Part shown: piece after piece, positions 4,177-44,062 of the stretch
Layout of the letters: every line of letters begins with the position of its first letter
Position numbering within the stretch: the stretch's first letter is position 1
DNA from: Sphingomicrobium sp.
GTDB taxonomy: Bacteria; Pseudomonadota; Alphaproteobacteria; Sphingomonadales; Sphingomonadaceae
NCBI GenBank assembly: GCA_036563485.1
Contig: DATCMI010000001.1
Coordinates: 2,171,501 to 2,235,500, forward strand
Direction: 5' to 3'
DNA: 64,000 nucleotides
The notes under the pieces: model-generated
Database searches by the model: none
What the model was told of the DNA's origin: nothing
The model's input: only the letters and a program-made list of their open reading frames with translations
Program-made: the position numbers and the translations under genes

Positions 4177-5259
4177 TTAATCGAACAGCTTGGCGAAGCG
4201 GCGCTTCTCGCGGTTCTTCCAGGCGCCGCGATGATAGGCGTCGCTGGCGAGGAGCGGGAGGACGCTCGTCGCTTCGGCGAACACCATCTGCTCCTGCGCC
4301 GTCGAGACCTTGCCCCAGCTTGCAGCTTCCTGGAGCGTCGAGGAGGAGCAGGCGCCGTCGCGCACGTCGGCCACCGTGATCTGGATGGCGTACTTGTGCA
4401 CTTCGACATCGTCGTGGCCGAGGATCTCCGCGCAGACGACGGTGTCCTGCGTGAAGTTCTTCGGAACGCCGCCGCCGATCATCAGCAGGCCCGTGGTGCC
4501 GGCCTCGATCTTGAGCTGCGTGAGCTCGCGGAAGTCGGCGATCGCGTCGAGCACCATGTAAGGCTTGCCTGCCTTCATGGCGTCGACCTGGTGCTTGACC
4601 AGGCCGAAGCCCGCCGACGAGTCGACGAACGCCGGGCAGAAGATCGGCACGTCATGCTCGTAAGCGAGCTGGACGAGGCTGCCCTGCTTCTTGGCGTTGC
4701 CCTCGCTCAGCCACTTGCCCATCTGGCGGATGAACGCGCGGCTCGAGTAGGCGCCGGGCTCCAGGCTGTTGGCGATCGCACCGATGGTGTGATCGGTTTC
4801 CTGAAGCTGCTCTTCATCGATATAGGTGTCGTAAATGCGATCGATGTAGAGCGAACGCAGCGTATCATCGTCAGGGATTTCATTCGCTTGGTAGTGCTTG
4901 TGACCAAGCGCTTCGAAGAAATCCATGTCGACGATCGTGGCGCCGGTGGCGACGATCGCGTCGACCATGTTCGAGCGCACGAGCTCGGCATAGAGGTCCA
5001 TGCAGCCGCCGGCCGAGGTCGAACCCGCGACGACGAGGATCACCGAGCAATCCTTGTCCTCGAGCATCGTGTTGTAGATGCCCGTCGCGCGCGCGAGGTC
5101 GCGGCTGGTGAAGCTCATCTTGCCCATGGCGTCGACGATCGGGCGGGCATCGAACTTGGTGATGTCGATGTGCTCGATCGGGGTCGACAGCAGTTCGGCC
5201 TTGCGGGTGTCGTTGATCCGCTGCGGATCCTGCACCTTGATCAAAGTATCGGTCGTCAT
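4177..5259 (-). CDS. speY: Deoxyhypusine synthase-like protein, probable homospermidine synthase
   Basis: A 360-residue member of the deoxyhypusine synthase family. NAD-binding and active-site segments are recognisable: VVAGSTSAGGCMDLYAELVR, VATGATIVDMDF, SLVQLAYEHDVPIFCPAFVD and GLLMIGGGVPKNF. Bacteria have no eIF5A substrate, and bacterial members adjacent to polyamine genes are thought to make sym-homospermidine (SpeY) or a related long polyamine. The ATG at 5259 has GGAG seven bases upstream; two earlier ATG codons (5265 and 5292) lack such a site. It lies directly downstream of the ornithine decarboxylase gene, which would supply putrescine, separated by 155 bases carrying two palindromic repeats. 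Confidence 0.82.
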   Translation of the reverse strand: MTTDTLIKVQDPQRINDTRKAELLSTPIEHIDITKFDARPIVDAMGKMSFTSRDLARATGIYNTMLEDKDCSVILVVAGSTSAGGCMDLYAELVRSNMVDAIVATGATIVDMDFFEALGHKHYQANEIPDDDTLRSLYIDRIYDTYIDEEQLQETDHTIGAIANSLEPGAYSSRAFIRQMGKWLSEGNAKKQGSLVQLAYEHDVPIFCPAFVDSSAGFGLVKHQVDAMKAGKPYMVLDAIADFRELTQLKIEAGTTGLLMIGGGVPKNFTQDTVVCAEILGHDDVEVHKYAIQITVADVRDGACSSSTLQEAASWGKVSTAQEQMVFAEATSVLPLLASDAYHRGAWKNREKRRFAKLFD

Positions 5260-5280
5260 TCTCATGCTCCAATAGCTCTC

Positions 5281-5302
5281 CCCCTCCCGCAAACGGGAGG
5301 GG
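5281..5302. repeat. REP-like palindrome, copy 1
   Basis: CCCCTCCCG and CGGGAGGGG flank a four-base CAAA loop; the palindrome is nearly identical to copy 2 at 5386-5407. It lies between speC and speY just upstream of the speY start. Such GC-rich intergenic palindromes are frequent in sphingomonad genomes and can stabilise mRNA. Confidence 0.6.
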
Positions 5303-5385
5303 TAAGGGGAGGGTTTGTCCTTGGTCCTTGAAAGGACCGGCTATTGGCCGTCGTTCTCCTCCGGGGGACAGGCCCACCCCTCGAT

Positions 5386-5407
5386 CCCCTCCCGCAAGCG
5401 GGAGGGG
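5386..5407. repeat. REP-like palindrome, copy 2
   Basis: CCCCTCCCGC and GCGGGAGGGG flank a two-base AA loop, eight bases past the speC stop. There is no T-run on either side, so it does not look like an intrinsic terminator. Together with copy 1 it fills most of the speC-speY spacer. Confidence 0.6.
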
Positions 5408-5414
5408 AGGATTT

Positions 5415-6644
5415 CTACAGCTGAACCACGTTGGTCAGCGCCGGTGCGCTTGCGCCATAGAGGCTCGCCATCGGCTCGTCGTCGACGATCGCCGATTCAA
5501 CGACTCCGAAGCCGTTGAACTGGGTCCGCATCGCACAGCCGTACGCGCCGAGCATGCCGACCTCTATATAATCGCCGGCCTGAACATCCGCTGGCAGCTC
5601 GAACGGGCCGGCCATGCGATCGAGATCGTCACAGGTCGGGCCATAAAAGCTGAATGCCGTCGGACGGACGTGCGATTCCTCGTCCCGGACCAGCCGGACC
5701 GGATAGCGCCAGCCGATATGCGCGGCATCGAACAAAGCGCCATAGGCGCCGTCGTTGATGTACAGCTCGTCGCCGCGGCGCTTCTCGACCCGCACGAGGA
5801 CGCTTGCATATTCGGCGCACAGGGCGCGGCCCGGCTCGCACCAGAGCTCGGCAGAATAGCTGATCGGCAGCGATTCGAACGCCTGGTGGATCACCGCGAA
5901 ATAGGTCTCGAGCGGTGGCGGCTCCATGCCCGGATAGGACGAGGGAAATCCTCCGCCGACATCGACGATGTCGACCGTGACCGCCGCTTCGACAATGGCC
6001 GCGCGAACGCGGGTCATCGCCTCTGCGAAGGCGGCCGGAGTCATTGCCTGGCTGCCGACGTGGAAGCAGATGCCGAGCGCGTCCGCCGCCTGGCGGGCCG
6101 CGATCAGCAGCGCCTTCATTTCCGCCGGATCGGCGCCGAACTTGGACGCGAGGCTGAGCTTCGCATGTTCGGAGCTGACGCGGATGCGGACCAGCAGGTT
6201 GAGATCGCTGGCCGCGACGCCGTCCGTAGAGGTCGCGCGGACGATCTTCTCCAGCTCCTCGGTGGTGTCGAGGCTAAAGGTGCGCACGCCGTGAGCGAAA
6301 TAGGCCTCGGCGATCGCTTCCTCAGCCTTGACCGGGTGCATGAAGCACAAGGTCGCTTGCGGAAGCGTGTCGTGAACGAGCCGGACTTCGCCGAGCGACG
6401 CGACGTCGTAATGCGTGACGCCGGCATCCCACAGGACATTCAGAAGCTCCGGGGACGGGTTCGCCTTGACCGCATACAGGGACTTGCCCGGGAACTTCTC
6501 GACGAAGAAGCGGGCAGCCCGACGCGCAGCGTGCGGACGAACGAGCGTGACCGGCTGAACCGGACGCTGCATGGCGATATCGAGAGCCCCCCGGCTCCCG
6601 GTCGGGGCGGTCGCTAGCCCCAGCGCGCGATGCTGCTTGTGCAA
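5415..6644 (-). CDS. speC: Ornithine/lysine decarboxylase, fold-type III PLP enzyme
   Basis: A 409-residue alanine-racemase-fold decarboxylase that would convert ornithine to putrescine. The PLP lysine is in SLYAVKANPSPEL (Lys60 from the chosen start). Further hallmarks are HVGSQ, DVGGGFPSSYPG, the phosphate-binding CEPGRALCAE, and YGPTCDDLD with the active-site Cys donated across the dimer. The start chosen is TTG at 6644, which has GGAGG nine bases upstream and gives an N-terminus (MHKQHRALGL) resembling relatives; the first ATG (6572) has no ribosome site and would remove the first 24 residues. It leads the speC-speY unit. Lysine or dual specificity cannot be excluded. Confidence 0.85.
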   Translation of the reverse strand: MHKQHRALGLATAPTGSRGALDIAMQRPVQPVTLVRPHAARRAARFFVEKFPGKSLYAVKANPSPELLNVLWDAGVTHYDVASLGEVRLVHDTLPQATLCFMHPVKAEEAIAEAYFAHGVRTFSLDTTEELEKIVRATSTDGVAASDLNLLVRIRVSSEHAKLSLASKFGADPAEMKALLIAARQAADALGICFHVGSQAMTPAAFAEAMTRVRAAIVEAAVTVDIVDVGGGFPSSYPGMEPPPLETYFAVIHQAFESLPISYSAELWCEPGRALCAEYASVLVRVEKRRGDELYINDGAYGALFDAAHIGWRYPVRLVRDEESHVRPTAFSFYGPTCDDLDRMAGPFELPADVQAGDYIEVGMLGAYGCAMRTQFNGFGVVESAIVDDEPMASLYGASAPALTNVVQL

Positions 6645-34624: not shown

Positions 34625-35247
34625 GGTAGCAGGTCCGCGATCGCGTCGAGGAGCCGGGTCGTGACCTCTTCAGGCGAGCCGGACGCGTCGATGATCCGGA
34701 CCCGATCAGCCTCCAGCGACGCGATCTCGCGGAAAGCGAGGTCGACGTTCTGGTGATAGCTTTCCGGGCGGCCGCCGATGCGGTCGCTCAGCTCGTTGTC
34801 GCGCGCGCGCGCCCGAGCGCCGCCTTCGGCGAGCGCCAGCACGAGCGTCCGGTCCGGCAAGCAGCCGTCGAGCCCGAACTCGTTGATGCTCCGGACCTTG
34901 TCGATCCCCAGTCCGCCCGCGCCGCCCTGATACGCAAGCGAGCTGTCGAGGAAACGGTCGCAAAGCACCCAGCGGCCGCTGTCGAGCGCGGGCCGGATTG
35001 TCTTATCCACATGATCTGCGCGGGCGACCGCGAACAGCAGTGCCTCCGCGCGTGCGCCCCAGCGGTCCTCGGCCCCAGAAAGCAGCAGTTCGCGGATCTT
35101 CTCGGCGCCTTCGCTGCCGCCGGGCTCGCGCGTGACCAGCACGTCGATGCCGCGCGCCGCCAAAGCATTCGCGAGCGCCTTCACCTGGGTCGACTTACCG
35201 ACCCCCTCCCCGCCTTCGAGGCTGATGAAACGGCCGCGGGCCGTCAC
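34621..35247 (-). CDS. tmk: Thymidylate kinase
   Basis: A 208-residue enzyme phosphorylating dTMP to dTDP. The P-loop is SLEGGEGVGKSTQVKAL, the DR(E/Y) region is TREPGGSEGAEKIRELLL, the substrate loop is DRFLDSSLAYQGGAGGLG, and the lid holds RARARDNELSDRIGGRPESY. The GTG start overlaps the carboxypeptidase gene stop (GTGA). Confidence 0.95.
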   Translation of the reverse strand: MTARGRFISLEGGEGVGKSTQVKALANALAARGIDVLVTREPGGSEGAEKIRELLLSGAEDRWGARAEALLFAVARADHVDKTIRPALDSGRWVLCDRFLDSSLAYQGGAGGLGIDKVRSINEFGLDGCLPDRTLVLALAEGGARARARDNELSDRIGGRPESYHQNVDLAFREIASLEADRVRIIDASGSPEEVTTRLLDAIADLLP

Positions 35248-36422
35248 GCCATCCCGAAGAGCGACTTGAGCCCCAGCCAGATGCGGCCGAAGAAGCCGGC
35301 GCGGCCGACGTCCTCCGCGGCGACCAGCGGCACCACCTGCGGCGGCGTATCGCCGGTGGTGATCACCAGCTGGGCAACTTCCTGGCCCTTCTTGATCGGC
35401 GCCACGAGCGGGCCGTCATAGCGGACCTTCATGCTGGTGGTGCCCGTCGCCAGGCCTGCGGGAACGGTGACCGACAAGTCGCGCGGCGCGATCAGCTGCA
35501 CTTCGCTGTCGCTGCCCATCTGGACCTGGGCGCTGCCGACCTTCGCGCCGGCCTTGAACAGCGGCTTGAGCTCCCAGGCGTTGAAGCCCCACTGCATCAG
35601 CCGCGTCGACTCGCTCACCCGCTCGTTCCAGCTGCCCATGCCGGCGAGCACTTCGATCAGGCGGCGGCCGTTCTGCTCGGCCGAGCCGGTGAAGCCATAG
35701 CCTGCCTCTTCCGTATGGCCGGTCTTCAGCCCGTCGGCGCCTGGCACCTTGCCGAGGATCGGGTTGCGATTCGCCTGAGTGATGTCCTGCCCGGAACCCA
35801 GGGTCTTGCCCCAGGTGAAGCTCGGTTGCCCATAGAACTTCTTGTAGAGCTTGGGATGGCGGCTGATCTCCGACGCCGCGAGCGTCGCGAGGTCGCGCGC
35901 GGTCACATAGGTCCGGCCTTCGTCCGGCCATCCGTTCGAGGTCCCGAAGTGGCTATTGGTGAGGCCGATGCGCTTGGCGAGCGCGTTCATCTGGCCGGTG
36001 AACGCCTCCTCGGTGCCGGCGATGCACTCGGCCAGCACGACGGACGCGTCATTGCCGGACAAGGTGACGATGCCGTGCAGCAGGTTCTCGACGCTGACCT
36101 GCTCGTTGGCGCTGAGGAACATGGTCGAGCCCGCGGCGGGTCCGTGCCACTTCTGCCACGTCTCCGGCCGGACGGTGCACAGCTTGCCCAGCGACAGCTT
36201 GCCCTGGTCGATCAGCTCGAACGCGACGTCGACCGTCATCATCTTGGCCATGGACGCCGGCGGCATGCGCATGTCGGCGTTCTTGGCAAACAGCACCGCG
36301 CCTGAATTCACGTCGTAGAGGAAGGCGACCTTGGCGGTCGTGTCGAACTGCGGGGCCGCCGCCGGAGCGCTGGTTGCGAGGAGGATCGAAGCGGTAGTGG
36401 CAAGAACGACGATGCGCGGCAT
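35244..36422 (-). CDS. D-alanyl-D-alanine carboxypeptidase (PBP5/6 family)
   Basis: A 392-residue periplasmic penicillin-binding protein that trims the terminal D-Ala from muropeptides. It has a signal peptide to about residue 22 and the active-site motifs SMAK (57-60, PPASMAKMMT), SGND and DGLKTGHTEEAGYG (KTG). A beta-rich C-terminal domain follows, ending in an amphipathic anchor IWLGLKSLFGMA. It leads into the overlapping tmk-holB-metG group, so wall synthesis and replication genes share this transcript. Confidence 0.93.
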   Translation of the reverse strand: MPRIVVLATTASILLATSAPAAAPQFDTTAKVAFLYDVNSGAVLFAKNADMRMPPASMAKMMTVDVAFELIDQGKLSLGKLCTVRPETWQKWHGPAAGSTMFLSANEQVSVENLLHGIVTLSGNDASVVLAECIAGTEEAFTGQMNALAKRIGLTNSHFGTSNGWPDEGRTYVTARDLATLAASEISRHPKLYKKFYGQPSFTWGKTLGSGQDITQANRNPILGKVPGADGLKTGHTEEAGYGFTGSAEQNGRRLIEVLAGMGSWNERVSESTRLMQWGFNAWELKPLFKAGAKVGSAQVQMGSDSEVQLIAPRDLSVTVPAGLATGTTSMKVRYDGPLVAPIKKGQEVAQLVITTGDTPPQVVPLVAAEDVGRAGFFGRIWLGLKSLFGMA

Positions 36423-36463
36423 GGAAATGCGGATTCCCCCGATTCAGGCGTGAAGCGGCCTGT

Positions 36464-37597
36464 CTAACGGCGCGCGATTGCGTTCGCCAGCAGCCCGATC
36501 GACATCGCGTAATAGTTCGAACAATTATAATCGAGGATGGCGCGGTAATTCTCGGTCAGAAGGTAGGCCGGTGCGTAGGCGCCGGGCGTCTCCATCAGCG
36601 TTGCCAGTTCGTTTTCCGGCAAGCCGCTGCCCATCGGCACCACGCCGAGAGCGCGCCACTCGGCGACGGTGAGCCAGCGGCTGTGGCGGCGGAAGACCGC
36701 CGGGCAGCGGGGCGGGTTAATCCTTGTCTGGATAGCCGCGCGGTTGAGGTTGGCCGGCACTTGCGCCGGCACGCCCCACGGGATGTTCGGCTTCCACCCC
36801 GCATTGCGCAGGTAATTGGCGATCGATGCGAAGGCGTCGTCCTCGTTCCGCCAGATGTCGGCATAGCCGTCGCCGTCGCCATCCGCACGCAACCGCAAGG
36901 CGACGGTCGGCATGAACTGCGGATAGCCAGTAGCTCCTGCATAGCTGCCCTTGAGCGTCCACCGCTGAACGCCCCGGTCGAGCAGCTTCAGCGCCGCGAT
37001 GAACTCCTCGGTGAAGAACTCGCGCCGGCGGCCTTCGTAGCCGAGGCTGGCAAGAGCCTCGAGCAGGTCGAAGCTGCCGGTGACGGTGCCGTAGCTCGTC
37101 TCCTTGCCGTAAATGGCGATGATCACCGCGGGATCGACGCCATAGAGGCTCTGGATCCGCGACAGGTTCGTCCAGTGGCTGAAATAGCGCGCGTAGCCGC
37201 GGTCGATCAGGTTCCGGGTGATGTGCTTTTGCAGGTAATTGCCGAATGCCGGCGGCGCGTAGCCGGTGCTGGTGCCGGTGGGCCGCTGCGCGCGGTCGAG
37301 CTCCATCACCCGCTGGTTGAGCCGCAGGCCGGGAATCACCGCCCGGATGGTGGCCTCGCGAACGCCGGCGGAGCGCGCCCGGCCCATCAGATAGGCTTTC
37401 CATTGCTCATAAGGGTCGCTGCTTGAGGCCTGGACGAGCGGGCGTTGGTAGACCTGTGGCTGCGCCTGGGCCATTTGCGTCGGTGCGACATTCGGCGCTG
37501 CCGTGTGGACGGGACGATTCTGGAAATTCTGCGCGCTAGCCGCGCTCAGCGACAGCGCTGAAACACCTACCCACCCCCACACACTCAATTGCCGCAC
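36464..37597 (-). CDS. Lytic murein transglycosylase, MltB type
   Basis: A 377-residue exported enzyme cleaving peptidoglycan glycan strands. The catalytic Glu is in IAIYGKETSYG; GATGYPQFMPT and the EF-like DGDGDGYADIW loop are typical for SLT_2/MltB proteins. A C-terminal peptidoglycan-binding-like region ends the protein. The GTG start at 37597, nine bases after GAGG, gives a signal peptide with an Arg in the n-region (VRQLSVWGWVGVSALSLSAA); TTG codons nearby are alternatives. No lipobox Cys, so the form is soluble. Confidence 0.88.
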   Translation of the reverse strand: MRQLSVWGWVGVSALSLSAASAQNFQNRPVHTAAPNVAPTQMAQAQPQVYQRPLVQASSSDPYEQWKAYLMGRARSAGVREATIRAVIPGLRLNQRVMELDRAQRPTGTSTGYAPPAFGNYLQKHITRNLIDRGYARYFSHWTNLSRIQSLYGVDPAVIIAIYGKETSYGTVTGSFDLLEALASLGYEGRRREFFTEEFIAALKLLDRGVQRWTLKGSYAGATGYPQFMPTVALRLRADGDGDGYADIWRNEDDAFASIANYLRNAGWKPNIPWGVPAQVPANLNRAAIQTRINPPRCPAVFRRHSRWLTVAEWRALGVVPMGSGLPENELATLMETPGAYAPAYLLTENYRAILDYNCSNYYAMSIGLLANAIARR

Positions 37598-37709
37598 TCC
37601 ACCTGTCCTCAACTACGCCCGAGGCTAGAAGTGTTAACCCCCCACATGCCAGCGGGTTCATCGCGCGGCTTGCACAGCTTGGCGCTGCAAGCGATAGCAG
37701 CGCCCGCGC

Positions 37710-37807: not shown

Positions 37808-39667
37808 TTACCTCTTCCTGACAGCAGTCACACTGCGTCGGGCCGTCAGCTTCGCATGGGAGGATTCAACGACCATGACATCGGTCGCGAACCGCACGCG
37901 AACCTGCCTTCCCGTGTTCGGCGCCCACGTTAGAAACGTGCCATCCGTTTGCGGCGCTAGATAGATAAACCGCTGAAAGTGCTGAGGCATCCAGTCGATG
38001 TAGATTTTGCCTGTCGGGTAGTGGATGATCCCAACGACGACAGATCCATGCGAAAAGCGAAGAAGCGCCAGTGTCCGGCGCTGACCGGGTTCAAGTTCAA
38101 CCGTTCCGACCAGATCGGCTCCCAAGTAACTTCCGTGTGCCACAAGCCATTGCGGCCACTCTTTTGCCCAAAAAGCTTTCTCCTCCTCCGGGGAGAAGCG
38201 ATCCTGCAAACGGGAAAGCACCGGCAGATAATCGCCCCGCGCTATTCCGTTCATGAGCGTGTCGACCAAGGCTTGTCGGTCGGGAAGATCGGCTATGTCG
38301 GCCTGGGGCAACATGGGCCAAGGGGAAAAGGCACGCAGCGTTGCCGCGTTCTCGACCTCGATAAAAAGATGTCCATCTTGAAAGCGCACAGGCATGCGCT
38401 CCCTTGTCGGCAGGCGGTAGTCACCAGCGACTCGTGACATGCTCGTCCGGACGTTTTTGCCGACGCGAGGTATGTCGAGCGGCAGACCGGCAAGTGCGTT
38501 CTGCGCCTTTGGCAGAAAGCCGCGCCACGGTGACCGTTCTTGCGTGTTGAAGGCGACGAGCGTCGCGTCCAGATCCGGGTAGAAGGCCAGGAAGTCGTAG
38601 TGCACCCCGGCCGAGCCATCGTGCGCAATGCGGCATGAACCATCTGGATTGCTGAACAAGGCCCAGCCATATCCGTAAAACGACGTGCGCCGCTTACCTT
38701 CGGCGACATGCGGCCAGAAGAGCTTGCGCCTTGAGGCGTCTGTGAGCACCCGACCTTGGCGCAAAGCATTCATCCAGCGCGCCAAGTCGCTCAGCGTCGA
38801 CAACATGTAACCGGCTCCACGGACCAGCCAATTCGGTCCGTCTCGATCCGGTGTGCGGTACAGATTCGGGGGCAGCGGCCCATCGAACATAGTGCCCTCG
38901 GCGACACTTTGGTGGGGCAATCCACCGAGAACCATGCCCGTCCGCTGCAAACCGGCCGGAAGCCACAGCTCGCGACGCATGAATCCCTCGAAGCTCTCCC
39001 CAGAAGCTTTCTCAACGATCGCCGCCAAGAGGGCATAGCCGGCATTGCTATACGAGTGGTGGGCTCCTGGCGGGCTTTCCAATGGCGCTCCAAAGATTTC
39101 GGCAACCGCCTGGTCGCGAGTCCGGTGCGTCTGATTGTTGCCGACGTCGTGCGGCAGTCCAGCTGAGTGGGTAAGGAGCTGGTGAATCGTTATATTGCGC
39201 TTGTCCGGGGGTACGCCGTCCAAATACTTCGATATGCGATCTTCCGTCCTGAGACGCCCCAGTTCTTCCAATCTCAAGATCGCCGCCGCCGTGAACTGCT
39301 TCGACACTGATCCAATGTCGAAAATCGTGTCGGCGGTCATCTCAGTTCGACGTGCGCGGTCTGAATAGCCGAAGGTCTGCGAATAGATGGGGTGGCCTCG
39401 CTGGGCGAGATGAACGCCGCCCGTGAAGCCGAACACGTCTGCCCTTCGAAAGAATTCCCGAAGATTTGCGGCGTCCATCACTGGTGCGGAAGGCTGCGAG
39501 ACCGGCTGAGGCGAAGCCTTTGCTGCACGGAATGCGCGACAAGCGGCATCCATCGCCCCTTCGCCTGACGGCGACGAAGGTTGGGCCATTGCGGCTCGCG
39601 ACTCGGCGGACGTCCCCTCGAGCATGGCGATCGCGATCGCGATCGTTGCTGCAGCTTTCCGGTGCAT
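37808..39667 (-). CDS. Class C beta-lactamase-like serine hydrolase
   Basis: A 619-residue exported hydrolase. Its signal peptide runs to about residue 28. The class C/PBP4*-type domain has the nucleophile Ser120 in DIGSVSKQFTAA (SxxK), the YSN motif (206-208) and HDGSAG (349-353) in place of KTG. A C-terminal region of about 230 residues is beta-rich and unidentified. Such domains occur in beta-lactamases, peptidases and esterases, so the substrate is open. The ATG has GGGAGGGAAA ten bases upstream. Its GC content looks lower than that of its neighbours, suggesting transfer. It follows the LytTR gene by 77 bases and ends next to tRNA-Ser. Confidence 0.85.
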   Translation of the reverse strand: MHRKAAATIAIAIAMLEGTSAESRAAMAQPSSPSGEGAMDAACRAFRAAKASPQPVSQPSAPVMDAANLREFFRRADVFGFTGGVHLAQRGHPIYSQTFGYSDRARRTEMTADTIFDIGSVSKQFTAAAILRLEELGRLRTEDRISKYLDGVPPDKRNITIHQLLTHSAGLPHDVGNNQTHRTRDQAVAEIFGAPLESPPGAHHSYSNAGYALLAAIVEKASGESFEGFMRRELWLPAGLQRTGMVLGGLPHQSVAEGTMFDGPLPPNLYRTPDRDGPNWLVRGAGYMLSTLSDLARWMNALRQGRVLTDASRRKLFWPHVAEGKRRTSFYGYGWALFSNPDGSCRIAHDGSAGVHYDFLAFYPDLDATLVAFNTQERSPWRGFLPKAQNALAGLPLDIPRVGKNVRTSMSRVAGDYRLPTRERMPVRFQDGHLFIEVENAATLRAFSPWPMLPQADIADLPDRQALVDTLMNGIARGDYLPVLSRLQDRFSPEEEKAFWAKEWPQWLVAHGSYLGADLVGTVELEPGQRRTLALLRFSHGSVVVGIIHYPTGKIYIDWMPQHFQRFIYLAPQTDGTFLTWAPNTGRQVRVRFATDVMVVESSHAKLTARRSVTAVRKR

Positions 39668-39744
39668 GCTAATATTTCCCTCCCCGACGCCTCGTTCGGC
39701 GGTCGCATGGCAAGCGCCGCAAGACGATTGTGACAAGGTGCAGT

Positions 39745-40578
39745 CTAGCGGTGACGAAGGGCTAGCATCTGCCTGACCGCTGCCCGGTACTTGCGGCCGA
39801 CCTGGAAACTGGTTCCATCGGAAAGGATCAATCGAAGCTCGCGGTTGGATGATTCCAGGCGCGCGACGCGCTCGGCATTGACGAGGATCGAGCGGTGGAC
39901 CCTTACGATGCCATGCGGTGCCAGCTCCGCCTCCATGGAAGCGAGGGTACGCCTGACCAGGCGGGTTGAGCCTTCAACGCTGACCCGGCAGTAATTTTCG
40001 TCGGCGCACACCCAGTCGACCATGGGTGGCGCTACAAGTTCCGTTCTTTTGCTCGACCGGAGCATGAGGACCGGGCGGGTCTCCGGTTTGCCGTGGCTGT
40101 TGTTCCCCGGCGCCGCAGCGAGCCGCAACTCCCCTGTCGCCATCGCATAAGCGTAAAGCAGGCCAGTGACGGCCCAATAGAACATCAGCTTCGCCAGGAA
40201 ATCCGATCGGAGCGAGTCACCGACACTCCGCATGCGCGATGGATCGACCCAACCTTCAAGAGGTACATAGATGACATATTTGAGCACTGCCGCGGCAACT
40301 GTTGCTGCAAATAGCGCCGGCAATGTCCGGAGCCAGAAACTGCGTCCAAACCGGGTGCGGATCACGATGAGATAGATGAATGGCACCCACAATGCGCAGG
40401 TGCTCCAGTCGAGCAGCCGCAAGCCGATCAGTGACGGCCATTCGATTGGGCGCGCGGAAGCTGCTCTGTAGACGGCGCCCTCGCCGGCGGTAATCGCGGA
40501 CATGAGAACGACGGCCGTCACGAGGACCGCGGCAAATCGTGCGTTCGGCTCCATTGGTTCGGAACGGGATAGAGCCAT
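39745..40578 (-). CDS. Membrane LytTR-family transcription regulator
   Basis: A 277-residue protein with four hydrophobic helices (about 15-33, 48-70, 81-103 and 124-146) and a cytoplasmic LytTR DNA-binding domain (about 180-275) showing VDWVCADENYCRVSVEG, LASMEAELAPHGIVRVHRSI and LSDGTSFQVGRKY. Without a receiver domain, the membrane part probably senses the signal directly. It precedes the serine hydrolase gene on the same strand and is divergent from the BlaI gene. ATG 40578 is used; ATG 40554 is an alternative. Confidence 0.86.
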   Translation of the reverse strand: MALSRSEPMEPNARFAAVLVTAVVLMSAITAGEGAVYRAASARPIEWPSLIGLRLLDWSTCALWVPFIYLIVIRTRFGRSFWLRTLPALFAATVAAAVLKYVIYVPLEGWVDPSRMRSVGDSLRSDFLAKLMFYWAVTGLLYAYAMATGELRLAAAPGNNSHGKPETRPVLMLRSSKRTELVAPPMVDWVCADENYCRVSVEGSTRLVRRTLASMEAELAPHGIVRVHRSILVNAERVARLESSNRELRLILSDGTSFQVGRKYRAAVRQMLALRHR

Positions 40579-40661
40579 CGCTATTTTCCGACCTTCACCG
40601 GCTGGAACGATAGCTTGAGGTGGTGGTGGCATCCATCACAAAAAAAGCGCTTGCAACCGCG

Positions 40662-40689
40662 CTACAAATGTAGCACTCTACAAATGTAG
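40662..40689. promoter_or_regulatory. Twin BlaI/MecI-type operators
   Basis: Two identical perfect dyads CTACAAATGTAG lie at 40662-40673 and 40678-40689, 16 bases centre to centre. The TACA-N2-TGTA core is the recognised operator motif of BlaI/MecI repressors. They sit 39-66 bases before the BlaI start, next to a -35-like TTGCAA (40651-40656), in the spacer shared with the divergent LytTR gene, so one repressor could control both directions. Confidence 0.85.
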
Positions 40690-40727
40690 CGCGACGAATC
40701 CGTCGTGCGTGAAGGGAATATTTCTTT

Positions 40728-41108
40728 ATGCTCAGCAAGCTTCCTCCCCGTGAACGACAGATCGTCGACGTGCTTTACGAGCGCGGCCCGATGCTGGTCG
40801 CCGACATTTGCGAGGCCCTTCCCGACCAGCTGAGCGGCTCGGCCGTCCGCGCGATGCTTAAGCGCCTGGAAGATAAGGGCTATGTTCAGCGCAGCGAATC
40901 GGAGCGCGGCTTCCTCTACAGCCCTGCTGTGGCGGATACGGTCGCCAAGAAGTCGGCGTTGAGCGAAATCGTTCGCGTCTTCTTCAACGGTTCGCCGGCG
41001 AGCGCCGCGTCCGCCCTGCTCGGCATGTCGGACCAGCTCAAGAAGAATGAGCTCGACGAGCTCGAGCAGATGATTGCTCGCGCCCGCCAGGAAAAAGGGG
41101 GCAAGTAA
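40728..41108 (+). CDS. BlaI/MecI/CopY family repressor
   Basis: A 126-residue winged-helix repressor. LPPRERQIVDVLYERGPMLV and SGSAVRAMLKRLEDKGYVQR form the DNA-binding domain. The C-terminal helices (SASALLGMSDQL, KNELDELEQMIARAR) form the dimerisation arm, in which BlaI is cut by its signalling protease. It ends directly before the M56 peptidase ATG with no gap. The twin TACA/TGTA dyads upstream predict autoregulation. The start is supported by the upstream GAAGGGA. Confidence 0.94.
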   Translation: MLSKLPPRERQIVDVLYERGPMLVADICEALPDQLSGSAVRAMLKRLEDKGYVQRSESERGFLYSPAVADTVAKKSALSEIVRVFFNGSPASAASALLGMSDQLKKNELDELEQMIARARQEKGGK

Positions 41109-43079
41109 ATGTCCGTCTTGATCGCGATTGCTTTGAAGTCGCTGCTGATTGCCGGCGGCACTCTTGGCCTGCTGGCCGTGATGAAGAAGCGTTCGGCGGC
41201 CGAACGCTCGTGGGTCGCCCACATCGGCCTCCTGGCTCTCGTGATCATGGCCATCGCGCCGCTCGTGCTGCCGAGCTGGACGGTGGAGACCCCCGCCATC
41301 TTCGCCAGCGATCCGGCTCCGGTCTCGAAAGAAGCGGCAGCGCCGATCATCAAGGAGCAGATTGCCGCCGCCGTGCAGGCGAAGGTCGACGCGAATGCAG
41401 CGCCGGTGGCCGCCGCAGCGTCCGAACCGTCGATCAGCGCCACCGCTGCGGCGGTTGCGCTCTATGCGGTTCCGGCCGCGATCCTGCTTTTCATCACCCT
41501 GCTGGCGCTTGGCCGGCTCATCACGCTGCGCGCCCGTGCCGACGTGCTGGTCGACGGCCATTGGTTGAGCGCCCTCGCCCGCGCGCAGCGCCGCATGGGC
41601 TTCAAGCACGGCACGGCCTTGCTGACCAGCAACGAGCTCGCTTCGCCGATCAGCTGGGGCCTGATGCGCCCGGTGATCCTGCTCAACAGCCGGGCCGTCG
41701 AAGCCTCGAATGAAGCGGAAGCCATCATCGCCCACGAACTTGCGCACGTCGCTCATGTCGATTGGGTGAAGCTGCTGCTGGCCCGCGTCGCCACGGCGCT
41801 TTTCTGGTTCAACCCGCTCGTTTGGATGCTTGCCCGCGAGGCGCACCAGCTGCGCGAAGAAACGGCCGACGACACCGTGCTCGCCGCCAATATCCCGGAC
41901 ACGGACTATGCTCAGCTGCTGGTCGGGGTTGCCCGCCACGAATGCCCCGGCATGCTCCTGGGAGCGCATGGCGTCGCCCCGTCCAAGAGCTCGCTCGCCC
42001 GCCGCGTCGCTCGCGTCCTCGACGGCAAGTCGGTGCGTGGACCGGTCGCCCGCTCGTTCGCCCTTGGCGTGCTTGTCGGTGCGGTGCTGATCGCCACTCC
42101 CCTCGCCGCGCTCACCGTTGGCCCGAAGTCGGGCGGAAGCACCAAGCTCGGTAAGGCCGTAGCGTCGGATAGCCCCTTGGCACCCTATTATCCGGAGACG
42201 GAGGCGGAAGGGCTGCCGACCGACCTGCCGAGCCTGATCACGTCCGGCGTGTCGACGTCAGTGCAGACCGCACTGGCGGCAGTGAACCCGAACTCGACGC
42301 TCACCAGCGGTTCTGGCGGCGTGATCGAAACGCGCGCTCCGAGCGGAGCCACCGTGCGCCAGGCCAACGGAATGACCGTGGCGACGGCCCCGAGCGGCGC
42401 GACGGTGACGATGTACCCGCCCGACCAGCATGGCCGCCGCAAGGTCGTGGCGCGCGCACCGAATGGCGCGGTCGCAGTGTCCTATGCGGATGACGAAGAC
42501 GAGATCCCCGGTTTTTCACAGCATCATGAGAAGAAGATGGAGAGAGCGATCGATCGCGCCATCTCGATGAAGGCTGTTGGCGTGACCTCCGAATATGTCG
42601 CCGCAATGCGCGCCAGCTCTCCTGCGCTCCGCGATCTAGATGCCGGCGAATTCGTCGGCATGAAAGCGGTCGGCGTGACGCCGCAATATGTCCGCGACCT
42701 CGTCGCTGCCGGGATCGGCGATTTCGACAGTGACGACCTCGCAGGTGCGCGTGCAGTCGGTGTCGACGGCGCCTATGTGCGCGCCATCCGGTCCGCGGGC
42801 CTGGGCGATGCGGATCTAAGCGACCTCACCGGCGCACGGGCGGTCGGTGTCACGGTCGCTTACGTCCGGGAAATGCGAGCGCTCGGTTTGGGTGATCTCG
42901 ACCTCGACGACCTGACCGGAGCCCGGGCCGTCGGCGTCACTGCCGATTACATCCGGCAGATGCGCGCGCGCGGATATGACGGCGACCTCAGCGACTATAC
43001 GTCACTAAGGGCGGTGACGGGTCACTTCGGGCGTGCGCGTCCGACGCCGCCCGCGCCGCCTCGGCCGCCGAACGGCTGA
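41109..43079 (+). CDS. M56 (BlaR1-like) membrane metallopeptidase with C-terminal 29-residue repeats
   Basis: A 656-residue membrane sensor-protease. Hydrophobic helices lie near 5-25, 36-55, 111-136 and 314-336. The zinc motif is HELAH (209-213) with downstream REETADD as the probable third-ligand site. The region beyond about 340, exported by BlaR1 topology, has a low-complexity linker (repeated APSGATV) and then five repeats of about 29 residues starting at 488, 519, 548, 577 and 606, with the core RAVGVTxxYVRxMRAxGLGD. It lacks the penicillin-binding domain of true BlaR1, so the ligand is probably not bound through an acyl-serine. Expected role: cleave the BlaI-type repressor on signal. 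Confidence 0.9.
   Translation: MSVLIAIALKSLLIAGGTLGLLAVMKKRSAAERSWVAHIGLLALVIMAIAPLVLPSWTVETPAIFASDPAPVSKEAAAPIIKEQIAAAVQAKVDANAAPVAAAASEPSISATAAAVALYAVPAAILLFITLLALGRLITLRARADVLVDGHWLSALARAQRRMGFKHGTALLTSNELASPISWGLMRPVILLNSRAVEASNEAEAIIAHELAHVAHVDWVKLLLARVATALFWFNPLVWMLAREAHQLREETADDTVLAANIPDTDYAQLLVGVARHECPGMLLGAHGVAPSKSSLARRVARVLDGKSVRGPVARSFALGVLVGAVLIATPLAALTVGPKSGGSTKLGKAVASDSPLAPYYPETEAEGLPTDLPSLITSGVSTSVQTALAAVNPNSTLTSGSGGVIETRAPSGATVRQANGMTVATAPSGATVTMYPPDQHGRRKVVARAPNGAVAVSYADDEDEIPGFSQHHEKKMERAIDRAISMKAVGVTSEYVAAMRASSPALRDLDAGEFVGMKAVGVTPQYVRDLVAAGIGDFDSDDLAGARAVGVDGAYVRAIRSAGLGDADLSDLTGARAVGVTVAYVREMRALGLGDLDLDDLTGARAVGVTADYIRQMRARGYDGDLSDYTSLRAVTGHFGRARPTPPAPPRPPNG
42570..43010 (+). 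repeat. Tandem 87-base coding repeats in the M56 gene
   Basis: Five head-to-tail, diverged copies of about 87 bases encode residues 488-634 of the metallopeptidase. The strongest identity is in the GGCGC/GCACGGGCGGTCGGTGTC segment that encodes AR-AVGV. Copies 3 to 5 are most alike, suggesting later duplication. Confidence 0.8.
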
Positions 43080-43189
43080 CCGCACGGCTCAGCAGAGCCA
43101 ACCGCAACTCACTTCGACTGAATTTTGACCGCCTCTCCCGAGGCGCATGGGCGAGCTTTGCCCGCCGTACAGACAAGAGGAGACCGAAA

Positions 43190-44062
43190 ATGAACCGCTT
43201 TGTCGCTTTGATCGGTGCCGTTTTCCTGACGATGATCAGCGTTGCGTCGGCATGTACCGCCGCGCCCGTGGACCTGATCCGCTTCACGCTCGAGCCGAAG
43301 GATGGGAGCGGCCTCGTGCAGGCCAACTTTCGCACCGGCGAAGCTCCGCGCCACCAGAGCAACTGGTCGAGCGGTTTCGCGCCCTCCGAACTCGCCGGAC
43401 TGGACCTTGCCGCTTTTCGCGCCGCCGGCAGCCGCCCGCTTGCTTTTGCCCTGAACCGCGAAGCCGGCCGGCTCGACTGCGTCGGACGGGGCGGAGAATC
43501 TTACGCGCACGGCGATTGCCGCTTCACGCCCAACCCGGCGTTCGCCCAGCTTCTTCAGTCCCGCGGGATCGGCCGCCCGACCGAGAAGGAGGCCTTCACG
43601 CTTATGGCCGTGAACGCCACCAGAGCGTTGATCGATGCCCTCGCAGCCGCGCGCTATCCGACCCCGAGCATCGACAAGCTGGTCCCGCTGGCCGCTCTCG
43701 ACGTCGACGCTGCTTATATCGCCGGCATGGCACGCGCGGGCTATCGCCCCGAAGATCTCGGCGCGTTGATCCAGTTCAAGGCGCTCGGCATCGACCCTGC
43801 GTGGGTCGGCCAGGTCCGGCGCATGGGCTATGCCGAGGCGTCATCGGGCGAGCTGGTGCAGCTCAAGGCGCTCGACATCACGCCGGAATTCATCGCCGGC
43901 TTCGAGCGGATCGGTTACCGCCACCTTCCCGTCAGCCAGCTTGTCCAGCTCCGGGCGCTCGATATCACGCCCGAGTTCGTGCAGAAGGTCGCGGCCATGA
44001 GCGGGGACACTGCGGACGTCGGCAAGGTGGTCCAGGCAAAGGCGCTCGGCCTCGTGCGCTGA
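43190..44062 (+). CDS. Exported protein sharing the 29-residue repeat of the M56 sensor
   Basis: A 290-residue protein of unrecognised family. A signal peptide ends at SVASA-Cys22 (a weak lipobox, so either a lipoprotein or a soluble periplasmic protein). An N-terminal domain has Cys97 and Cys110, which could form a disulfide. Then come four and a half repeats of exactly 29 residues (conserved Ala at 169, 198, 227, 256 and 285) with the core ALDITPEFIxxxxRxGY, clearly related to the repeats of the preceding gene. AGGAG lies eight bases before the ATG. A gap of 110 bases without a clear terminator separates it from the sensor gene. It may be the sensor's partner or competitor. Confidence 0.75.
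   Translation: MNRFVALIGAVFLTMISVASACTAAPVDLIRFTLEPKDGSGLVQANFRTGEAPRHQSNWSSGFAPSELAGLDLAAFRAAGSRPLAFALNREAGRLDCVGRGGESYAHGDCRFTPNPAFAQLLQSRGIGRPTEKEAFTLMAVNATRALIDALAAARYPTPSIDKLVPLAALDVDAAYIAGMARAGYRPEDLGALIQFKALGIDPAWVGQVRRMGYAEASSGELVQLKALDITPEFIAGFERIGYRHLPVSQLVQLRALDITPEFVQKVAAMSGDTADVGKVVQAKALGLVR

Follow-up and report, generated by a model that had tools for sequence, protein, structure and literature searches.

A BlaI/M56 cassette of Sphingomicrobium with a 29-residue repeat common to its membrane sensor and its exported protein

A cassette of three consecutive genes in Sphingomicrobium sp. encodes a BlaI/MecI-type repressor, an M56 (BlaR1-type) membrane metalloprotease-sensor and an exported protein, the last two of which carry the same 29-residue repeat. 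It lies in a stretch of 64,000 nucleotides (contig DATCMI010000001.1, positions 2,171,501 to 2,235,500), referred to here as the window. The cassette is real and conserved, and it is a variant of the BlaI/M56 kind. Our best reading, to which we assign a probability of about 0.4, is a BlaI/M56 derepression module in which the sensor and the product recognise the same ligand. An earlier sequence-only reading of the window had described the three genes as consecutive, and the open reading frames lie where it placed them, all on the forward strand, with Pfam matches for the first two. The blaI gene (40728-41108, +; 126 residues) matches Penicillinase_R (PF03965) at an expectation value (E) of 5.1e-22, and its product passes the cut-off of this family, that of the BlaI/MecI repressors with a winged-helix domain, at 78.8 against 22.6 bits. 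The M56 gene (41109-43079, +; 656 residues) matches Peptidase_M56 (PF05569) at E 2.4e-30. After a spacing of 110 bases it is followed by the exported-protein gene (43190-44062, +; 290 residues), which is delimited by open reading frame position, alignments and a structure model, and whose product matches no family in Pfam-A or NCBIfam even at E <= 1.

The repeat positions given by the sequence-only reading proved exact. The five repeats of the M56 protein start at residues 488, 519, 548, 577 and 606, the first spacing being 31 residues and the rest 29; by repeat register and structure model they occupy residues 488-633 (42570-43007, +). The repeat of the exported protein returns with a constant period of 29 residues at Ala 169, 198, 227, 256 and 285, within a predicted solenoid of residues 140-284 (43607-44041, +) whose register is exact from residue 169. 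Ahead of the solenoid the exported protein has a beta domain, delimited by alignment and structure model (residues 30-114; 43277-43531, +), which contains Cys97 and Cys110, and a hydrophobic N-terminus, recognised by eye, with a candidate lipobox at Cys22. That the sensor and the exported protein share the repeat is borne out by BLASTP (E 2e-8, 24% identity across 131 residues) and by profile-profile comparison of the two arrays (E 9.1e-34, 175 columns), and structure models predict both arrays to be helical solenoids of the same kind. Homologues of the exported protein are either about 290 or 319-320 residues long, and the alignment attributes the difference to one inserted 29-residue unit. 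The repeat family is very large, with at least 1177 and at least 3134 homologues at E <= 1e-3 among the 7992 and 8000 candidates listed. Assignment to a recognised fold failed, as Foldseek, queried with the exported protein, returned no match in the PDB at E <= 1e-3, from which novelty of the fold does not follow; the helical matches of the repeat by VIA-align, in comparison with TALE/BurrH- or mTERF-like solenoids, are weak.

The repeats of the sensor are attached to a protease of ordinary M56 architecture. The protein comprises four hydrophobic stretches, which agree with helices in the structure model, a gluzincin domain and a C-terminal part made of a small beta domain (residues 406-460) and the solenoid (residues 478-641). 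The zinc motif HELAH, also named in the sequence-only reading, was found at residues 209-213 (41733-41747, +) and is invariant in 32 sequences; together with the gluzincin half-motif E250xxxD254 it completes the HExxH...ExxxD signature of the M56 family. The claim that the penicillin-binding sensor domain of BlaR1 is missing likewise withstood inspection: SxxK is absent from residues 336-656, and the sensor part matches no Pfam family at E <= 0.001, Transpeptidase included. Penicillin sensing by this protein was rejected on the missing SxxK and the missing Transpeptidase match. It scores 66.4 bits with blaR1_generic, far under the cut-off of 400, and, lacking a class D-like penicillin-binding domain, it is strictly speaking no BlaR1.

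The order of blaI, repeat-bearing M56 gene and exported gene is found in the window and in eight other loci (L014-L017 and L019-L022). A profile of the exported protein matched 7 of 119 genomes of the family. The sole match in one of them (G101) sits within an M56 gene, and the remaining six genomes hold seven exported genes, five of them right behind a blaI and repeat-M56 pair (window, L019-L022) and two not (G081). A scan of genome contigs yielded five further loci. Four of them are complete cassettes (L014-L017), and the fifth, in an Acidobacteriota metagenome-assembled genome (MAG; L018), is a lone gene. Nine of the 12 exported genes found stand directly behind such a pair, and the co-occurrence across genomes on which the sequence-only reading had staked its proposal is thereby observed. 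The exported proteins of L019-L022 are only 27-30% identical to that of the window, yet the gene order is kept. From the side of the sensor, the repeat occurs in 7 of the 105 M56 sensor parts surveyed below, and an exported partner is present for five of the seven; these five partnered loci were first met via the exported protein, and L089, the only repeat M56 found solely by the M56 search, is without a partner.

The named relatives of the exported protein, among the matches listed, are mostly Sphingomicrobium and Sphingomonas MAGs, and repeat-bearing M56 proteins are also present under the record names Sulfotelmatobacter, Thermoanaerobaculia and Longimicrobium. Within the class, a match was found in 1 of 190 genomes, which is the window's own, and G077, also of the window's genus, lacks a match to the exported-protein profile. 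The two lone exported repeat proteins of G081 lie at L023:6361-7404 and L024:6260-7132, with no BlaI, repeat M56 or operator box in the stretches read. A divergent partner conserved between L017 and L021 was considered and rejected, the genes being unrelated. No description of the repeat or the cassette was found by titles and abstract openings in the literature searched, most subscription journals being outside its scope.

Two perfect copies of the putative BlaI-type operator box CTACAAATGTAG, both overlooked in the sequence-only reading, precede blaI in the window. Box 1 (40662-40673) and box 2 (40678-40689), neither assigned to a strand, start 66 and 50 bp upstream of the gene, the second 16 bp after the first; the window holds these 2 boxes against 0.15 expected at up to 1 mismatch. 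BlaI, MecI and CopY are reported as binders of TACA/TGTA sites in the accessible part of PMC7253601, according to which ten bases alone are insufficient to predict binding. A predicted site of this type stands at the promoter of blaI itself, as is characteristic of the family. The box TACANNTGTA precedes blaI in 10 of 11 repeat-M56 loci, L025 being the exception, and the pairing at 16 bp is repeated in L014, L016, L021 and L089 and ahead of an outer-membrane gene (L012) of the window's own genome.

The source genome (G000; 2.33 Mb, two M56 genes) contains 9 perfect CTACANNTGTAG sites at 6 places, against 1 for a reversed-pattern control. Only perfect boxes were counted, because at up to 1 mismatch the control exceeds the real pattern in this genome (73 versus 13). 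The six places are the window, a second blaI-M56 pair (L011), a TonB-plug and OMP_b-brl_3 outer-membrane protein (L012), a DUF2807 protein (L010, where a glutathione-transferase gene lies on the opposite side of the box), an ALGxxQ-rich protein (L013) and an amidohydrolase (L009); we read the last three proteins as probably exported from their N-termini. Every place faces, on at least one side, blaI or a gene for an apparently exported or outer-membrane protein, which points to the envelope. A clear excess over the control is confined to G000 and G012 (4 versus 0); the counts are 2 versus 0 in G010 and 4 versus 3 in G042, and fall under the control in G077, G080, G081 and G101. The L011 pair, shorter than that of the window, has its box at 4245 and its M56 gene at 4635-5843; its box is the same, and the window BlaI may act on operators of this pair as well. 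Proteins of ALGxxQ units at L013:3228-3866 and, in G012, at L027:3183-3824 lie near two boxes about 33 bases apart, the second L027 box departing from the 12-base pattern at its end. The domain of these proteins also occurs in the M56 sensor part of L034, L037, L042, L044, L055 and L093.

Sharing of a domain between an M56 sensor and a neighbouring protein was surveyed in 109 M56 loci, nine known beforehand and 100 fetched by a preset rule (87 stretches for all phylum matches down to E 1e-13 outside the nine and, from the family matches that passed the cut-off, the 13 weakest, likewise outside the nine). A BlaI homologue lies close to M56 in 107 of the 109. Four loci were dropped because fewer than 40 residues follow the protease domain, and the remaining 105 C-terminal parts were compared with every other open reading frame, both in the same locus and in the rest. 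A match within the own neighbourhood at E 1e-3 was found for 10 of 105 parts, against 72 of 11340 mismatched pairs. Six of the ten matches (the repeat cassettes of the window and L019-L022, and L031) belong to the nine loci known beforehand, and L031 had suggested the test. The fair count, restricted to the rule-fetched loci, gives 4 matches in 96 loci and 40 in 9504 mismatched pairs, a result reached by 4 of 20000 shuffles; it lowers the odds of a general rule of sharing and, slightly, those of the preferred reading. One of the four is L087, where a class D beta-lactamase model gives the sensor part 277 bits (cut-off 280) and the neighbour is over the class D cut-off (257.5 versus 250); in L090 and L102 an M23 sensor stands beside an M23 neighbour, and the fourth match, L033, has a TonB_C sensor.

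The M56 sensors of this sample are diverse in their domains: TonB_C is the commonest (26 of the 105 C-terminal parts), followed by Peptidase_M23 (9), ankyrin (6), DUF3471 (2), Transpeptidase (1) and DUF2807 (1). The DUF2807 case, L031:2826-5673, from a relative within the family, is one run of genes that encodes a DUF2807 protein, then BlaI, then an M56 protein with DUF2807 as its sensor, accompanied by a divergent outer-membrane barrel gene. It is a second type of cassette with a domain common to the sensor and the product. A modular rule might be drawn from these pairs, by which the outer domain of an M56 protein would duplicate the domain used for recognition by the exported product it controls, both being swapped together; we regard it as rather doubtful. 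The pairs under such a rule would be class D with class D enzyme, DUF2807 with DUF2807, perhaps M23 with M23, and the present repeat with itself. The rule of sharing is suggestive and not established; a further hint towards it is the domain that the ALGxxQ proteins of L013 and L027 have in common with M56 sensors of six other loci.

In the preferred reading, BlaI would repress the operon from the paired TACANNTGTA boxes, as its family and the boxes suggest. The M56 protein is predicted to span the inner membrane like BlaR1, with the protease inside and the repeat solenoid outside. By homology with BlaR1, binding of an envelope ligand to the solenoid would lead the protease to cut BlaI and so relieve the repression. 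The products would be the sensor itself, the exported protein with its solenoid and beta domain and, in most relatives, a TonB-plug barrel. The exported protein would most likely bind the ligand of the sensor, and by its removal, carriage or buffering would make induction self-terminating, like beta-lactamase with the inducer of BlaR1; the shared repeat and the bla precedent argue for this common recognition. The occurrence of the same repeat in sensor and product, often with an adjoining barrel gene, suggests that both recognise the same envelope signal, and the idea is strengthened by the class D-type sensor that adjoins a class D beta-lactamase in the rule-fetched L087. A common ligand is, in our view, the best supported, if unproven, of the three ideas of the sequence-only reading, which also named direct interaction and decoy competition. 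The interpretation given in that reading is supported in part: rather than a signalling design unlike acylation by beta-lactams, the class D pair of L087 points to a logic that may equal that of bla with another recognition domain.

Several observations weigh against common recognition by the sensor and its product. Sensors without a partner occur in L025 and L089, and the exported genes of G081 (two copies) and of the Acidobacteriota MAG (L018) have no blaI or M56 gene in the stretch read. The repeats of the window sensor and its partner are just 24% identical. Although scores of sensor arrays against partner arrays in nine two-gene loci, with row and column means removed, are higher for matched pairs than for random matchings (p 0.00085), the signal comes mainly from L019 and L020, and shared genome composition is uncontrolled in it. 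In the survey, no sharing was detected in 92 of the 96 rule-fetched loci, and at E 1e-5 the count is 2 of 96 against 25 of 9504 mismatched pairs, a value reached in 478 of 20000 shuffles. Three of the four rule-fetched matches involve common domains (M23, TonB_C); the L102 neighbour lies 4.15 kb distant, and the L033 neighbour reaches TonB_C only under the cut-off.

The matched similarity of the arrays within loci would also be expected of co-evolving contact partners. Direct contact, in which the exported solenoid would dock on the sensor solenoid and hold the protease off as negative feedback, or else switch it on, makes the common repeat an interaction module rather than a ligand site. The operon structure and the identical fold and period predicted for the two proteins agree with such contact, which we nevertheless consider improbable: the unpaired sensors and partners listed above are difficult to accommodate, and the numbers of repeats differ among the relatives of both proteins.

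The outer-membrane barrel offers another function for the sensor. A gene for a TonB-plug barrel comes next after the exported gene in L014, L015, L019, L021 and L022, overlapping it by 4 bp in L021 and L022, and directly after the M56 gene in L089. The barrel is present in 6 of 9 judgeable loci, the sequences of L017 and L020 being too short to judge, and in the M56 sample 4 of the 7 repeat loci have a barrel homologue close to the M56 gene, as against 1 of the 102 remaining M56 genes (Fisher p 3e-5, computed over seven repeat loci that are related and not independent). This enrichment, together with the box pair that the window genome's barrel L012 has of its own elsewhere on the genome, indicates that the barrel probably belongs to the regulated set. 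The exported protein might then be a periplasmic or lipoprotein partner of the barrel, and the sensor repeat might read the barrel or the free partner, acting as a monitor of assembly or transport. Besides the gene order and the box pair of L012 at the same 16-bp spacing, the candidate lipobox in the close family of the exported protein and in L021 would fit such a monitor. We find it unlikely, less probable than direct contact. No barrel gene occupies that place in the window, L016 or L025, L089 combines barrel and sensor in the absence of the exported protein, and the lipobox was not found in L017, L019, L020, L022, L023 or L024, a comparison that leaves out L018, whose reading frame was taken from too far upstream. 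Identity with the L012 barrel is 50% for the barrel of L089 and 44-47% for L019, L021 and L022, falling to 26-27% for L014 and L015. We give the lowest probability to the view that the repeat is an all-purpose envelope solenoid which several proteins acquired independently, and that finding it in both sensor and neighbour means nothing for function: the size of the repeat family and the existence of lone copies favour it, but the gene order is retained at the low identities of L019-L022, and sharing in the rule-fetched loci is above that of mismatched pairs at E 1e-3.

Upstream of the cassette, the window contains by eye a D-Ala-D-Ala carboxypeptidase-like gene and a lytic-transglycosylase-like gene (35244-37612, -), homologues of which precede the cassette in L014-L016 too. 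The region 37808-40632 (-), divergent from blaI, encodes a LytTR regulator and a large serine hydrolase with the beta-lactamase fold (PF00144). The regulator gene begins about 30 bases from the boxes, and both genes could therefore share the BlaI operator. Membership of this pair in the conserved module is unsupported, as neither gene has a homologue at E <= 1e-8 in any of the eleven loci under comparison.

M56 genes are widespread, being found in 81 of the 119 family genomes at E <= 0.001, 79 of them over the cut-off, and to our knowledge few M56 signals are known beyond beta-lactams and copper. The signal of the present sensor becomes testable because its exported twin can be purified for a ligand search. 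Should the rule of sharing prove true in a larger survey, the targets of orphan M56 sensors would become predictable; under the modular rule, the target gene of an uncharacterised M56 protein would follow from its sensor domain, or the domain from the target, and the cassette would be an undescribed instance, its solenoid sensing an envelope ligand and the exported twin and barrel answering.

The closest known systems are BlaI-BlaR1 and MecI-MecR1, with which the cassette has in common the BlaI-type repressor with TACA/TGTA boxes, the M56 gluzincin protease with HExxH and ExxxD and, by prediction for the window protein, four transmembrane helices and a C-terminal extracytoplasmic sensor. The BlaR1 sensor is itself related to exported enzymes, the class D beta-lactamases, in the portions available of PMC9834060 and PMC5957439. 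Unlike BlaR1 and MecR1, the window sensor is a solenoid of 29-residue repeats with no penicillin-binding domain and no SxxK, and the product of the cassette is a repeat protein, often accompanied by an outer-membrane barrel, instead of a beta-lactamase or penicillin-binding protein. PetR-PetP of Synechocystis, a BlaI-like repressor with a BlaR1-like protease that senses copper, is described in a commentary (PMC7896320) whose accessible text makes it a comparable BlaI/M56-type pair with a signal other than a beta-lactam; it differs in its targets, plastocyanin and cytochrome c6, and that text mentions no repeat common to sensor and product. CopY/CopR repressors, by the available part of PMC7253601, are homologous and use the same TACANNTGTA core operator, likewise paired, but respond directly to metal without a protease. 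The window BlaI is under the CopY_TcrY cut-off (29.5 versus 121.95 bits) and falls outside that group. The DUF2807 cassette of L031 resembles that of the window in the domain common to the exported protein and the M56 sensor, in the box upstream of its first gene and in the outer-membrane barrel, there divergent. Its shared domain is DUF2807 rather than a helical repeat, and its exported gene comes first, with BlaI between it and the sensor.
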